64,000 nt of DNA. It comes from Prevotella falsenii DSM 22864 = JCM 15124. GTDB lineage: Bacteria > Bacteroidota > Bacteroidia > Bacteroidales > Bacteroidaceae. The notes beneath the pieces are model-generated. The model had not been told where the DNA came from. It saw only the letters and a program-made list of their open reading frames with translations, and did no database searches. Shown piece after piece: positions 10,606-26,735 of the stretch. Each line of letters starts with the position of its first letter. The first letter of the stretch is position 1. The translations under genes and the position numbers were made by a program. The stretch lies in NCBI RefSeq assembly GCF_000613945.1, contig NZ_BAJY01000004.1, positions 1 through 64,000 of the forward strand, written 5' to 3'.

Positions 10606-10840
10606 TAAATTAGGCTTACTAAAAGAACACAAAACAAATAAAAACAGAAAGTTAAATATGTTTCAGGAAGAAGAACCGATGGGGTAATGGTTATGAAAAA
10701 GCGGCATCTCACGTTTTTCATGGTGTTTTTCCCATAAAACCACCGTTCGGTCAAAGTTATTTAAACTGATACCTTATATTATTCTGTAATGGTAAAATTA
10801 AAAAATATTAGGAATATTTTAATGTTTAAAAAAAATATAT

Positions 10841-10848
10841 TATTTTTG
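10841..10848 (+). promoter_or_regulatory. candidate -7 promoter element for the first HA2 gene
   Basis: TATTTTTG matches TAnnTTTG. The expected -33 position (10817-10820) reads TTTT, not TTTG, so the promoter is imperfect. Transcription from about 10855 would give a leader of roughly 180 nt that includes the structured element at 10976. Confidence 0.45.
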
Positions 10849-10975
10849 CACAAAGTAGTACCGGCGAACGGCATAATTGCGTCTGTGCAAGCGTCGCCCC
10901 ATGCGCAGCAGCCCATGAAACCTAAAACAGCTACGACGAAAAAAGATATAAACGTAAAAACCTAATTCATCACAG

Positions 10976-11037
10976 AACGCCCAAACCTCCGTACGGCGTA
11001 GCTCTGAAAAGAGTTTTAACAGGGAGGCTTTACTATT
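10976..11037 (+). promoter_or_regulatory. structured mRNA leader with sequestered RBS, copy A
   Basis: A leader directly before the HA2 gene at 11038, shared with 13102-13163. Stem P1 pairs ACGCC (10977-10981) with GGCGT (10995-10999). A hairpin at 11000-11015 has a GAAA tetraloop. CCTCC (10986-10990), inside the P1 loop, is exactly complementary to GGAGG (11023-11027), which lies 10 nt before the ATG, so pairing would form a pseudoknot burying a Shine-Dalgarno-like sequence. Comparison with copy B shows a U-A to C-G compensatory change in the hairpin and a GAAA to GCAA loop change that keeps the GNRA class. This is a riboswitch-like layout; the ligand is unknown. Confidence 0.7.
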
Positions 11038-12885
11038 ATGGTCTATCAATTACTAAAGAACATGTATGCAGTAATTGCAGCAATGTTCGTGGCAATGTTC
11101 GCTTTGCCTGCCACGGCGCAGTCGCAAGGCAAGGCAAAAATCATTCTCGAAGCACACAATCTATGGGGCGATGGCAGCGGCTATCAGATGTTGCTCGATG
11201 CCGACCACAACCTTTACGGCAGCAAAATTCCTAAAACCGGTCCGTTGTGGAACGACGCCAATCCGCCTGCCGACCTGTACGATGGTTTCGAATACAAAAT
11301 TCCGGCAGACGCCGACCCTTCTACCGAGCCCAAGCACATGGTGGTTGATGGCGAAGACTTCGTGGAAATTCCTGCCGGAGTGTACGATTTCTGCATCGTT
11401 TCGCCACAGAAAGGCAAGAAAATATGGATTGCAAACAACGAACTTGACCCGACAAGAGCCGACGACTACACTTTCGAGGCAGGCAAGATATACCGCTTCA
11501 CCATCGTCTTCGTGGGCGGAAATAACAAGGACGGTGCGAAACTTACCATCATAGACTCGAACGAAAAGTACGACCTATCTATTGCGGGCACTACCGTAAA
11601 CGCTGTAAACTGCACCAATCTTGCTACCATTCCCGGCGTAAAAGGCAAGGTTAGTTACGATAAAACCTCGAAAACGCTCTTCCTCGAAAACGCTACCATC
11701 ACCACAACGGGCACCACGCTGCCTATCGAATCAAAGATAGACGGAATGAAGATAGACGTGAAAGGCAACAACACAATCACTTCCGGCGGTGTTGCAGCTA
11801 TCTCGATAGAAAATGCAAAATGCTTTGTCAAGGGTGGCGGAAGCCTTAAACTGAGCGCAAAAGACTATGGCATGTACGCCAAGGGCGATGCGTCGGTAAC
11901 CGTAGACGGGTGTATGATAGAGTCTGACGGAGCTTTCGGCAGCGACAGCAAGAATGCCGAAATGGCCATCAAGCGATGCGATGCAACCATAAAGGGGCGC
12001 GACTTCGGAACTATCAGCGGTATTAAGAATTTCGTTATCGAAGGTTGCAGAATCATAGAACCTGCAGGTGCGAAGTACGACAAGAACCTGAAGGCAGTTG
12101 CGCTCAATGGCGCAATGGTGAAAAGCGACATCGTTATCGAGACATCAGAATACGATTTGTCTGTCGCCGGCAGAATGGTAACAAAGGACAACTGCGACGA
12201 CCTCACCGTAATTCAAGGCGTTAAAGGAAAGGTTAGCTACGACCACAAGACGAAGACACTTACGTTGGAGGACGCCACCATCAAGGCTGCGTCCGGTGCA
12301 AAAGCCATCTACTCGTGGATTGATGGCTTGACAATCAAGGTTATCGGCAAGAACCAACTCACGTCAAATACCACAACGCTCACCTTCCTCAAGCCTATCA
12401 CCATTACAGGCGGTGGTGTGCTCGATGTGGAGAGTGCGCTCGACAATGCCATTTTCGCAACTCGCACCAACCTTACCATCGAAGAATGTACCGTAAATGC
12501 CACATCTCCGGGCTACGGCGTTACGGGTCTCGACGGCGAAAGCAACGAAACGCTGACCGTTCGTAATGCTACGCTGACCGCAAAAGGCACCGACGAGGCT
12601 TCCATCGGCAAGTTTACTTCGCTCATCATGGAGGGCTGTGCCATTACAAAACCGGAGGGAGCAACCTTCAATCCGGCACTCCACGGCGTGGTATTGGGCG
12701 GCATGCTGGTCAAGGAAAGGGTAGAAATAACCAAGGGCGCATCGGGTATTGCCACCCCAACAGCAAAGACCGTTACCGTAAAGCGTGGCACTTACACCCT
12801 CAGCGGCGTCCGCTTGTCTGACGATTTGAACAGTTTGCCAAAGGGAATCTATATCGTAGACGGTAAGAAAGTAGTGAAAAAGTAA
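11038..12885 (+). CDS. secreted HA2/DUF2436 protein with beta-helix-like repeats
   Basis: 615 aa. A Sec signal peptide (about 1-28, ending A-T-A-Q) is followed by a DUF2436 domain (about 33-178; ILEAHNLWGDGSGYQ, LLDADHNLYGSKIP, E-I-P-A-G-V-Y-D-F). This is the HA2 haemoglobin-binding module of Porphyromonas Kgp/RgpA/HagA, here without any protease domain. Two ~190-residue repeats follow, each opening Y-D-L-S-x-A-G and containing V-K-G-K-V-S-Y-D and short N/T/I-rich strands, suggesting parallel beta-helix rungs. The C-terminus L-P-K-G-I-Y-I-V-D-G-K-K-V-V is a common Prevotella surface-protein ending and may be a sorting signal. It is probably a surface or secreted haem/haemoglobin binder (inference). 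The next gene is a shorter paralogue with the same leader. Confidence 0.85.
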   Translation: MVYQLLKNMYAVIAAMFVAMFALPATAQSQGKAKIILEAHNLWGDGSGYQMLLDADHNLYGSKIPKTGPLWNDANPPADLYDGFEYKIPADADPSTEPKHMVVDGEDFVEIPAGVYDFCIVSPQKGKKIWIANNELDPTRADDYTFEAGKIYRFTIVFVGGNNKDGAKLTIIDSNEKYDLSIAGTTVNAVNCTNLATIPGVKGKVSYDKTSKTLFLENATITTTGTTLPIESKIDGMKIDVKGNNTITSGGVAAISIENAKCFVKGGGSLKLSAKDYGMYAKGDASVTVDGCMIESDGAFGSDSKNAEMAIKRCDATIKGRDFGTISGIKNFVIEGCRIIEPAGAKYDKNLKAVALNGAMVKSDIVIETSEYDLSVAGRMVTKDNCDDLTVIQGVKGKVSYDHKTKTLTLEDATIKAASGAKAIYSWIDGLTIKVIGKNQLTSNTTTLTFLKPITITGGGVLDVESALDNAIFATRTNLTIEECTVNATSPGYGVTGLDGESNETLTVRNATLTAKGTDEASIGKFTSLIMEGCAITKPEGATFNPALHGVVLGGMLVKERVEITKGASGIATPTAKTVTVKRGTYTLSGVRLSDDLNSLPKGIYIVDGKKVVKK

Positions 12886-12896
12886 AACCTATTTTG

Positions 12897-12923
12897 AAGG
12901 AGCGCGGCACGTTTGCGCTCCTT
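12897..12923 (+). terminator. hairpin after the first HA2 gene
   Basis: A 9-bp stem AAGGAGCGC/GCGCTCCTT with a 9-nt loop, 12 nt after the stop. The following T-run is poor, so it may be a weak terminator or an mRNA-protecting hairpin. The 12924-13100 stretch beyond it shows no gene or further motif. Confidence 0.45.
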
Positions 12924-13101
12924 ACGCTCTTTCGTAGCTTTATTTTGGTCTTCCGTTAAATGCGTAGACAACCGGCATTGAAATACATTGAGCCGCTCTG
13001 TGCCTCGGTCGGATAAAGTTGCAGCATCTTTCGTACCCGGCTTGTTTGCAGGCATTCATCACTTACAGAAGTTACATTACATTTAAAACCTATCATTTTT
13101 T

Positions 13102-13163
13102 AACGCCCAAACCTCCGATACGGCGTTACTCCGCAAGGAGTTTCAACAGGGAGGACAAATATT
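13102..13163 (+). promoter_or_regulatory. structured mRNA leader with sequestered RBS, copy B
   Basis: The second copy, directly before the HA2 gene at 13164. P1 is ACGCC (13103-13107) with GGCGT (13122-13126). The hairpin ACTCC-GCAA-GGAGT is at 13128-13141. CCTCC (13112-13116) can pair with GGAGG (13150-13154), 9 nt before the ATG. The stem differs from copy A at a paired position on both sides, which supports a real RNA fold. Confidence 0.7.
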
Positions 13164-13829
13164 ATGAAGAAACCATTACTTACTTTTTTCAACGCAGCAA
13201 TAGCTGCGCTCTTCGTCGCCATGCTTGCATTACCCACCACGGCATGCGCACAAGACAAGGCAAAAGTCATTCTCGAAGCACACAATCCGTGGCAGGACGG
13301 TAGCGGATTTCAGCTTTTGCTCGATGCCGACCACAACTTATATGGCAGTAAAATTCCAATTAACGGTCCTCTATGGAACGATGAGAACCCGCCGGCCGAC
13401 CTCTACGACGACTTTGAATTTAAGATTCCGGAAAATGCCGACCCTGTTCTGGATACCAAGAACATTCTTGTAGACGGCGAAATGGCTTTGGATATTCCCG
13501 CAGGCATCTACGACTACTGCGTCGCAGCCCCACAGAAAGGCTATAAAATATGGATTGTCGGCAAGAAATTAGACCCTTCGGCAGGCGACGACTACCACTT
13601 TGAAGCAGGCAAAACCTACCGTTTTTCGATAGAGATTGTAGGCACTTCTGTAGAAGATGCGGTAAGAATAACGGTTACAGAAACCTCTGCAGGCATCGAC
13701 ACGCTTATCGACCGCACTGCCAAAACCGACCACCGCATCTACAACCTTAACGGCACGCGCCTTTCAGGCAAGCTGCAAGACCTACCCAAAGGTATATATA
13801 TCGTAAACGGGAAGAAAGTTGTGTTGTAG
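13164..13829 (+). CDS. secreted HA2/DUF2436 domain protein (short paralogue)
   Basis: 221 aa. The signal peptide (about 1-31) ends T-A-C-A-Q-D; the Cys in it is not in a clear lipobox. A single DUF2436/HA2 domain (about 34-178) contains ILEAHNPWQDGSGFQ, LLDADHNLYGSKIP and DIPAGIYDYC. A linker then runs straight to a C-terminal L-P-K-G-I-Y-I-V-N-G-K-K-V-V-L tail like that of the paralogue at 11038. The beta-helix repeats of the larger protein are absent. The two genes and their leaders look like a tandem duplication followed by gain or loss of the repeat region. Likely role: secreted haemoglobin/haem capture (by homology to HA2). Confidence 0.85.
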   Translation: MKKPLLTFFNAAIAALFVAMLALPTTACAQDKAKVILEAHNPWQDGSGFQLLLDADHNLYGSKIPINGPLWNDENPPADLYDDFEFKIPENADPVLDTKNILVDGEMALDIPAGIYDYCVAAPQKGYKIWIVGKKLDPSAGDDYHFEAGKTYRFSIEIVGTSVEDAVRITVTETSAGIDTLIDRTAKTDHRIYNLNGTRLSGKLQDLPKGIYIVNGKKVVL

Positions 13830-26661: not shown

Positions 26662-26667
26662 CAATGT

Positions 26668-26735
26668 GTTTTTCATGGTATTAGATTATTAAGGTTTTGA
26701 AGATTGGTTGTCGTGAGACAGTCAATCTTTTTTTT
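26668..26735 (+). ncRNA. candidate short RNA or orphan leader (~68 nt)
   Basis: Runs from the promoter at 26630 to a 12-bp stem (AGATTGGTTGTC/GACAGTCAATCT) capped by a GUGA tetraloop and followed by eight T at 26701-26735. The 5' part ATTAAGGTTTTGAAGATTGG resembles a stretch of the RNA at 19336, and both carry a GUGA-capped hairpin. It could be an independent sRNA or the attenuated leader of a lost gene. The spacer 26351-27437 contains this RNA, a box repeat and the pheT promoter, with no coding region. Confidence 0.5.
26701..26735 (+). terminator. terminator of the short RNA
   Basis: 12-bp stem (two G-U pairs), GUGA loop, then a run of eight T. Confidence 0.8.

Follow-up and report, generated by a model that had tools for sequence, protein, structure and literature searches.

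Bacteria of the class Bacteroidia do not use Shine-Dalgarno (SD) sites although the anti-SD is present, and upstream adenines and the absence of structure matter for their initiation of translation (PMC9976891, PMC6847099). In reporter constructs of Prevotella bryantii, addition, omission or lengthening of the SD had no clear effect, and neither had a hairpin at -21; when the structure included the SD, protein was 0.12 at -5.2 kcal/mol and 0.007 at -11.1 kcal/mol (PMC3155529). Here we describe a leader that occupies the same position as these structures, which strongly lower translation in a Prevotella, but which is a natural, conserved pseudoknot whereas those were designed, simple hairpins (PMC3155529). 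It occurs twice in the window, by which we mean the whole stretch of 64,000 nucleotides (nt) that was analyzed from Prevotella falsenii DSM 22864 = JCM 15124 (contig NZ_BAJY01000004.1, positions 1 to 64,000). From sequence comparison and by analogy, we consider it likely that the leader is a cis-acting H-type pseudoknot RNA that would act by its bulk as a lid on translation, gated by a signal that is probably general. Its two copies belong to a large RNA family of Prevotella-type bacteria that apparently has no earlier description.

Both leaders lie on the forward strand and are 62 nt long, as had been proposed in a sequence-only reading of the window. The first, W1 (10976 to 11037), abuts the ATG at 11038, and the second, W2 (13102 to 13163), abuts the ATG at 13164. 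They share the order ACGCC, CCTCC, GGCGT, a hairpin of 4 base pairs and GGGAGG, and the differences quoted between them (U-A to C-G, G-U to A-U, and GAAA to GCAA) were confirmed. In the proposed fold, the loop of a first hairpin (P1) contains a C-rich stretch, which pairs with a G-rich strand directly ahead of the start codon (helix S2), and a second, small hairpin (P2) stands in the third loop. In W1, P1 consists of ACGCC (10977 to 10981) and GGCGT (10995 to 10999), S2 of CCTCC within the P1 loop (10986 to 10990) and GGAGG (11023 to 11027), and P2 of CTCT, a GAAA loop and AGAG (11002 to 11013). In W2, the corresponding elements are AACGCC (13102 to 13107) and GGCGTT (13122 to 13127), CCTCC (13112 to 13116) and GGAGG (13150 to 13154), and CTCC, a GCAA loop and GGAG (13129 to 13140). 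GGAGG stands 10 nt upstream of the ATG in W1 and 9 nt in W2. W1 precedes a gene for a protein of 615 amino acids with a DUF2436 domain and beta-helix-like repeats (11038 to 12885, forward strand), and W2 a gene for a DUF2436 protein of 221 amino acids (13164 to 13829, forward strand); by eye, both N termini resemble signal peptides.

The family was recovered by pattern and by covariance-type models in which only P1 and P2 were given as structure. The motif pattern matched the P. falsenii genome four times, with no match on the reverse strand and none for a reversed control. Model R1, built from six pattern-found P. falsenii copies, detected 13 copies in this genome at E < 1e-4 and, at E ≤ 0.1, matched 25 of 149 relatives, the strong matches all falling within the genus. 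Its matches in eight genomes outside the genus (E between 0.018 and 0.069) were judged to be due to chance, and one match (L072, in G039) was discarded as it sits, by eye, within an open coding stretch. Model R2 (35 members) matched 99 of 398 sampled genomes of the genus at E ≤ 0.02, with 8 to 11 copies per genome in G083, G395 and G442 and 10 in G060. Model R3 (106 rows) gave 15 matches in P. falsenii at E ≤ 0.01, namely 14 firm ones and a marginal fifteenth (E = 5.5e-4); W1 was matched at 10976 to 11028 with 63.8 bits and W2 at 13102 to 13155 with 70.6 bits, the top score of the genome. Across 393 genomes of the order, R3 at E ≤ 0.001 matched only P. falsenii and G608, from a different family of the order. 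The G608 site (L206, 1501 to 1584; 30.1 bits) is weak and off-gene and was not counted, because it has a long insert and flanking palindromes and no ATG frame was found within 40 nt. Among named genomes, a DNA pattern matched 11 stretches. Seven came from Prevotella micans, P. pallens, P. multiformis, Hoylesella pleuritidis, H. enoeca, Alloprevotella rava and A. tannerae, all with R3 at E ≤ 7e-12; the other four, from non-Bacteroidota genome contigs, were rejected, having no R3 match at E ≤ 0.5. The exact A-type pattern had no match in the viral contigs searched.

In total, 115 members from 57 genomes were aligned (35 in alignment A3 and 80 in A4, mostly top-scoring copies), and 30 more were added later. 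By P1 and downstream gene, the 115 fall into 65 A-type and 50 B-type copies. A-type copies, which include W1 and W2, have P1 AACGCC/GGCGUU and precede genes for secreted proteins, lipoproteins and OmpA-like proteins; B-type copies have P1 AAGRCC/GGYCUU, a C5-G5 hairpin and AUAAGAGGGGGGC. Both can share one genome, as in G060, where A-type leaders precede lipoprotein genes and a B-type leader a zinc-ribbon gene. Among the 14 firm P. falsenii copies, the leader, with a mean pairwise identity of 0.765 (0.484 in shuffles), was the best conserved of the seven stretches that were compared; the 60 nt directly upstream of it gave 0.558 (0.517 in shuffles), and the two stretches 60 to 180 nt upstream gave 0.48 (0.47 in shuffles). 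Since conservation in P. falsenii A-type genes extends into the first 60 coding nt (identity 0.659, later 0.526), leader and signal peptide look like one common 5' module.

The main evidence for the pseudoknot comes from covariation. The S2 pairing was part of no model, its letters being modelled as sequence only. In A3 (33 distinct rows, 16 pairs), 93.8% of the cells were paired, compared to 89.5% after shuffling (reached in 0 of 500 shuffles) and 43 to 52% with slid strands; of the other measures, one was reached in 4 shuffles out of 500 and another in 19. In A4 (77 distinct rows), 95.5% of the cells were paired (shuffled 85.0%, 0 of 500; slid 47 to 63%), double changes were seen in 14 of 16 pairs (shuffled 8.1), including all six S2 pairs, and the covariation score was 0.381 (shuffled 0.188). 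When the 104 distinct rows were split by subtype, the A-type alone had 38 double-change cells in S2 compared to 12.1 in shuffles (0 of 500), and all six pairs were affected (2 of 500). Double changes in P1 numbered 8 in the A-type (1.0 shuffled) and 22 in the B-type (7.5 shuffled). Compensated S2 variants include AUCUCC/GGAGAU, GUCUCC/GGAGAC, GCCUCU/AGAGGC, GCUUUC/GAAAGC and CCACC/GGUGG. Contrasts between nearest neighbours (n = 87) yielded 23 double compensated S2 changes, 52 single changes that were still paired and 7 cases unpaired in both, while four slid controls gave 6, 1, 0 and 2 double compensated changes. Covariation is seen in P1 and P2 as well as in S2, and no relative breaking both P1 and S2 was present in the sets aligned. 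The H-type pseudoknot at the start codon that the sequence-only reading had put forward is supported in that both crossing helices covary and are common to many leaders.

The same reading had taken GGAGG to be fixed, which does not hold for the family. Among the 104 distinct copies, the 3' strand of S2 is GGGGG in 46, GGAGG in 24 and another sequence in 34. Sixteen of these 34 keep all six S2 pairs, 10 keep five, 4 keep four and 4 keep three, so that 26 of the 34 retain at least five. Judging from the aligned copies, it is the S2 pairing and not the letters GGAGG that is conserved.

Several observations weigh against the pseudoknot or limit its support. Copies entered the set on the strength of their score, and P1 and P2 were what the alignments were fitted to. 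In the B-type, S2 is nearly fixed: there are 4 double-change cells (0.73 shuffled, 1 of 500), and the percentage of paired cells was reached by 12 of 500 shuffles, so that covariation alone is weak there. The nearest-neighbour contrasts also contain 65 S2 changes from paired to unpaired, per-pair counts single out the outermost pair (13-87) as the weakest, and four of the copies lacking GGAGG and GGGGG hold only three of six pairs, three of the four with an alignment gap. Because compensated changes exceed the slid controls while many pairs open, the compared copies indicate that S2 is a real helix, but one that frays. The hold-out of 30 members (A6) does not provide a strong independent test, because it is mostly B-type with little change in S2. 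The single-sequence fold (71 nt) is unremarkable, with z scores of -0.72 and -1.83 for the two leaders and with 43 and 8 of 200 shuffles, respectively, folding equally well; the case therefore rests on comparison. Nor does energy alone show the knot, since a nested fold of S2 and P2 without P1 is predicted to equal or surpass P1 plus P2.

The position of the leader is consistent with a role at the start of translation. A reading frame of 40 or more codons that opens with ATG begins within 40 nt in 112 of the 115 copies (the misses being L059, L150 and L172 [contig end]) and in 28 of the later 30 (misses L252 and L255), which means that 140 of 145 score-chosen copies lead straight into such a frame. 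In 108 of the 112, the ATG lies 6 to 13 nt past the last model position, and 79 have A at -3. The folded knot would cover the region where the ribosome lands and shut off translation by default. Because structure at this place strongly affects translation in Prevotella, which ignores SD sites, the block would be exerted by bulk and not by hiding an SD site. The idea that the knot hides the ribosome-binding site thus stands in one part, as a strand of the knot does lie in the initiation region, and calls for revision in the other, as GGAGG probably does not function as an SD in Prevotella (PMC3155529, PMC9976891); this, and the fact that pairing rather than GGAGG is kept, makes a steric block more likely. 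The predicted energies of S2 plus P2 (-11.2 and -12.6 kcal/mol) fall in the strongly repressing range, which argues for a lid that would be off by default. A signal would then open or close the lid.

The downstream genes bear on the nature of this signal. A link to HA2/DUF2436 proteins, and through them to haem or iron, had been suggested. Only 4 of the 14 firm P. falsenii copies precede genes for DUF2436-type proteins (called by Pfam for the window genes and by N-terminal sequence for L019 and L020), and elsewhere the leader precedes araA, amtB, gcvH, rhaT, lpxA and others. According to their N termini, the 50 B-type genes comprise araA (13), a C4 zinc-ribbon protein (10), GH57 (7), frdB (4), acyl-CoA dehydrogenase (4), lpxA (3), icd (2), a sodium:solute symporter (2), AcrB (2), amtB (1) and a prephenate dehydrogenase-like protein (1), with one contig end; rhaT and gcvH were added by the later 30 copies. 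We therefore rejected control linked to haem, iron or HA2, as the genes concerned (surface proteins, lipoproteins, araA, frdB, icd, amtB, lpxA) are unrelated. Because the targets share no common pathway, the signal is probably general, such as an RNA-binding protein or a signalling metabolite, rather than a pathway substrate such as haem. The leader probably acts as a lid on the translation of many unrelated genes.

Gain and loss could be followed at araA, which was present in 74 of 100 genomes. The leader was found at 9 of the 30 best loci, and many of the leaderless ones have a short, A-rich, unstructured upstream region. Where the leader is present, araA stands, by eye, behind either an upstream gene or a promoter-like TTTGC of its own. 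As it is present at some araA orthologs and replaced by an A-rich region at others, the leader is portable, but it is kept. B-type leaders often lie inside operons: at many loci, e.g., at frdB, the gene upstream ends in a stop codon 28 to 99 nt ahead of the motif. This arrangement is in keeping with translational control.

What would set the lid is a matter of several readings. One form of the signal-gated lid is a true riboswitch, in which the junction of P1 and S2 would bind a small molecule that may be a signalling metabolite of a general kind. The topology resembles that of translational preQ1-II riboswitches, in which a loop pseudoknot helix buries the SD (PMC11625349). In addition, the unpaired junction letters C7 and G80 are near-invariant (103 and 102 of 104 copies), and five more unpaired letters are conserved in 85 to 91% (A76 in 95, A77, A79 and G19 in 90 each, and A24 in 88). 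C7 and G80, which hardly vary, flank both helices at the junction and might pair there. These invariant letters could also be read as packing of the pseudoknot, however, and loop sequence is variable both between C7 and S2 and in the second loop, most of all in the B-type. The downstream genes have no common pathway either, although a second-messenger class would not need one. We regard a riboswitch as a tentative possibility. It is likewise conceivable, without being favoured, that a Prevotella protein or small RNA binds the knot and represses or frees the translation of a regulon; many unrelated genes per genome carry the leader (14 firm copies in P. falsenii), which is regulon-like.

A fixed damper without any trigger, in which the knot merely sets a low translation rate, seems unlikely. 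In P. bryantii, structure alone represses (PMC3155529), and the araA comparison is in agreement with a damper, the gene working with and without the leader since only 9 of the 30 orthologs scanned carry it while others have an A-rich, unstructured upstream region. A predicted repression of about 100-fold would nevertheless be odd for frdB, icd, araA and lpxA; gating by a signal is suggested because a fixed block of this size on FrdB or Icd makes little sense. Moreover, the conserved unpaired letters and the kept P1 exceed the needs of a damper.

Far less probable is that the G-rich strand is a real SD for special ribosomes with a free anti-SD, lacking bS21 or bS18, with the C-rich strand as a decoy. 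The leader CCUCC does resemble an anti-SD, ribosomes of Flavobacterium johnsoniae without bS21 gain SD use, and strong SDs precede rpsU or rpsR in Bacteroidia (PMC9976891). Yet GGAGG and GGGGG are both absent from 34 of 104 copies, most of which keep the pairing, SD addition, removal and length had no clear effect in P. bryantii (PMC3155529), and PMC9976891 itself reports that its criteria for rpsU autoregulation are satisfied nowhere in the Bacteroidales. A ribosomal protein leader is not indicated either, no ribosomal protein gene having been recognised among the N termini examined.

The leader might finally act as DNA, either as an operator or as a mobile palindromic repeat, as in repetitive extragenic palindromes or miniature inverted-repeat transposable elements. 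P1 forms an inverted repeat, and a 3' half without P1 was found off-gene at 4 of 20 places. Frequently (by eye, at some 16 of 25 loci), B-type copies stand behind a GC-rich palindrome, which is dispersed, with 47 matches in 8 of 12 genomes. This reading is hardly credible in view of two interleaved complementarities with compensatory changes, a fixed strand and ATG distance, RNA-type tetraloops (GNRA or UNCG in 15 of 51 four-letter P2 loops, 3.1 expected), the absence of a palindrome match in the A-type genomes G000, G060, G083 and G266 and of a palindrome in the 150 nt examined at the araA leaders L218, L219, L221 and L238, and full copies that are tied to genes, as the 140 of 145 preceding an ATG frame indicate.

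The off-gene 3' halves (L178, L179, L189 and L203) are B-type and consist of a C-run hairpin and GGGGNATAAGAGGGGG; three of them (L178, L189 and L203) have a GC-rich palindrome ahead. They are truncated leaders or a related repeat. The dispersed palindrome reads GCCCCCTCC-N-CCTCCCC-N-GGGGAGG (L248 to L251, G254, G230 and others), 21 of the 47 matches lying in G254. The B-type may have arisen from, or may feed, dispersed repeats; the A-type shows no link to dispersed palindromes.

Some further observations concern the surroundings of leaders. L062 holds five copies in 4 kb, at least four of them ahead of near-identical lipoprotein genes, in a tandem array. In P. micans (L208, 781 to 1045), two leaders lie 211 nt apart, the first followed by a broken-off gene start, a duplicated remnant. 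A repeated stretch (GATAAG..GCACTCGGACATTTGAGAATAA..) is found upstream of the leader at L002 (200 to 360) and also ahead of the L006 copy. In P. falsenii, a cobalamin riboswitch (44.1 bits) lies downstream of a leader gene (L022, 2945 to 3054). In the window, TTATTTTTGC at 10840 to 10849 (forward strand) is a candidate promoter -7 region for W1, and 26666 to 26735 (forward strand) matches BTncRNA_FopS (RF04319; 61 bits, gathering 56), a Bacteroidetes small RNA family.

Prevotella, whose translational control is little known, ranks among the major genera of the mouth, gut and rumen. A covarying knot ahead of many genes, in cells whose ribosomes ignore the SD, offers a concrete and testable case of SD-free gating of start sites; it would bring surface proteins together with central metabolism under what may be a single signal, and its ligand or factor is open to a direct in vitro search. 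Tentatively, and with some doubt, the leader could represent a new riboswitch or protein-gated class for SD-independent bacteria, a genus-wide Prevotella regulon under one general signal, in which a portable knot was placed ahead of surface proteins in oral species and, in other species, ahead of genes for central metabolism and transport.

With respect to known RNA families, an Rfam 15 scan of the window at gathering scores gave three matches, none at either leader; at E ≤ 10, W1 and W2 had chance matches only (E ≥ 1.3), and no family matched the leader itself in further loci at E ≤ 1 (9 loci) or E ≤ 0.5 (14 loci). Hence, no known family with a different fold was found at the leaders. The motifs of a 2017 survey of 224 motifs are reportedly included in Rfam. 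No description of such a leader was found in open-licence PMC text. Candidate RNAs from the human microbiome are similar in being computational motifs, some of them from Prevotella or Bacteroidetes, but the available text names no pseudoknot leader and places Prevotella-only motifs near uvrC (PMC8040213); a fragment of the leader family may sit in the supplementary tables of that study. The SAM-II and SAM-V riboswitches share with the leader a compact H-type knot directly ahead of a gene, but neither family had an Rfam match at the leaders. To our knowledge, they contain no embedded hairpin like P2. SAM-V also acts at the level of translation (PMC6061858). As for the preQ1-II riboswitch (RF01054), it was absent among the Rfam matches at the three thresholds above, and the leader genes are not queuosine genes. 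The preQ1-II RNA has an extra hairpin, P4, in its third loop. It occurs in Bacillota, whereas the leader occurs in Bacteroidota (PMC11625349). In preQ1-II, a hairpin loop pairs with the 3' tail ahead of the start codon, and the resulting pseudoknot helix buries the initiation region and controls translation (PMC11625349); the leader has the same topology, with its helix over the initiation region, and would likewise control translation.

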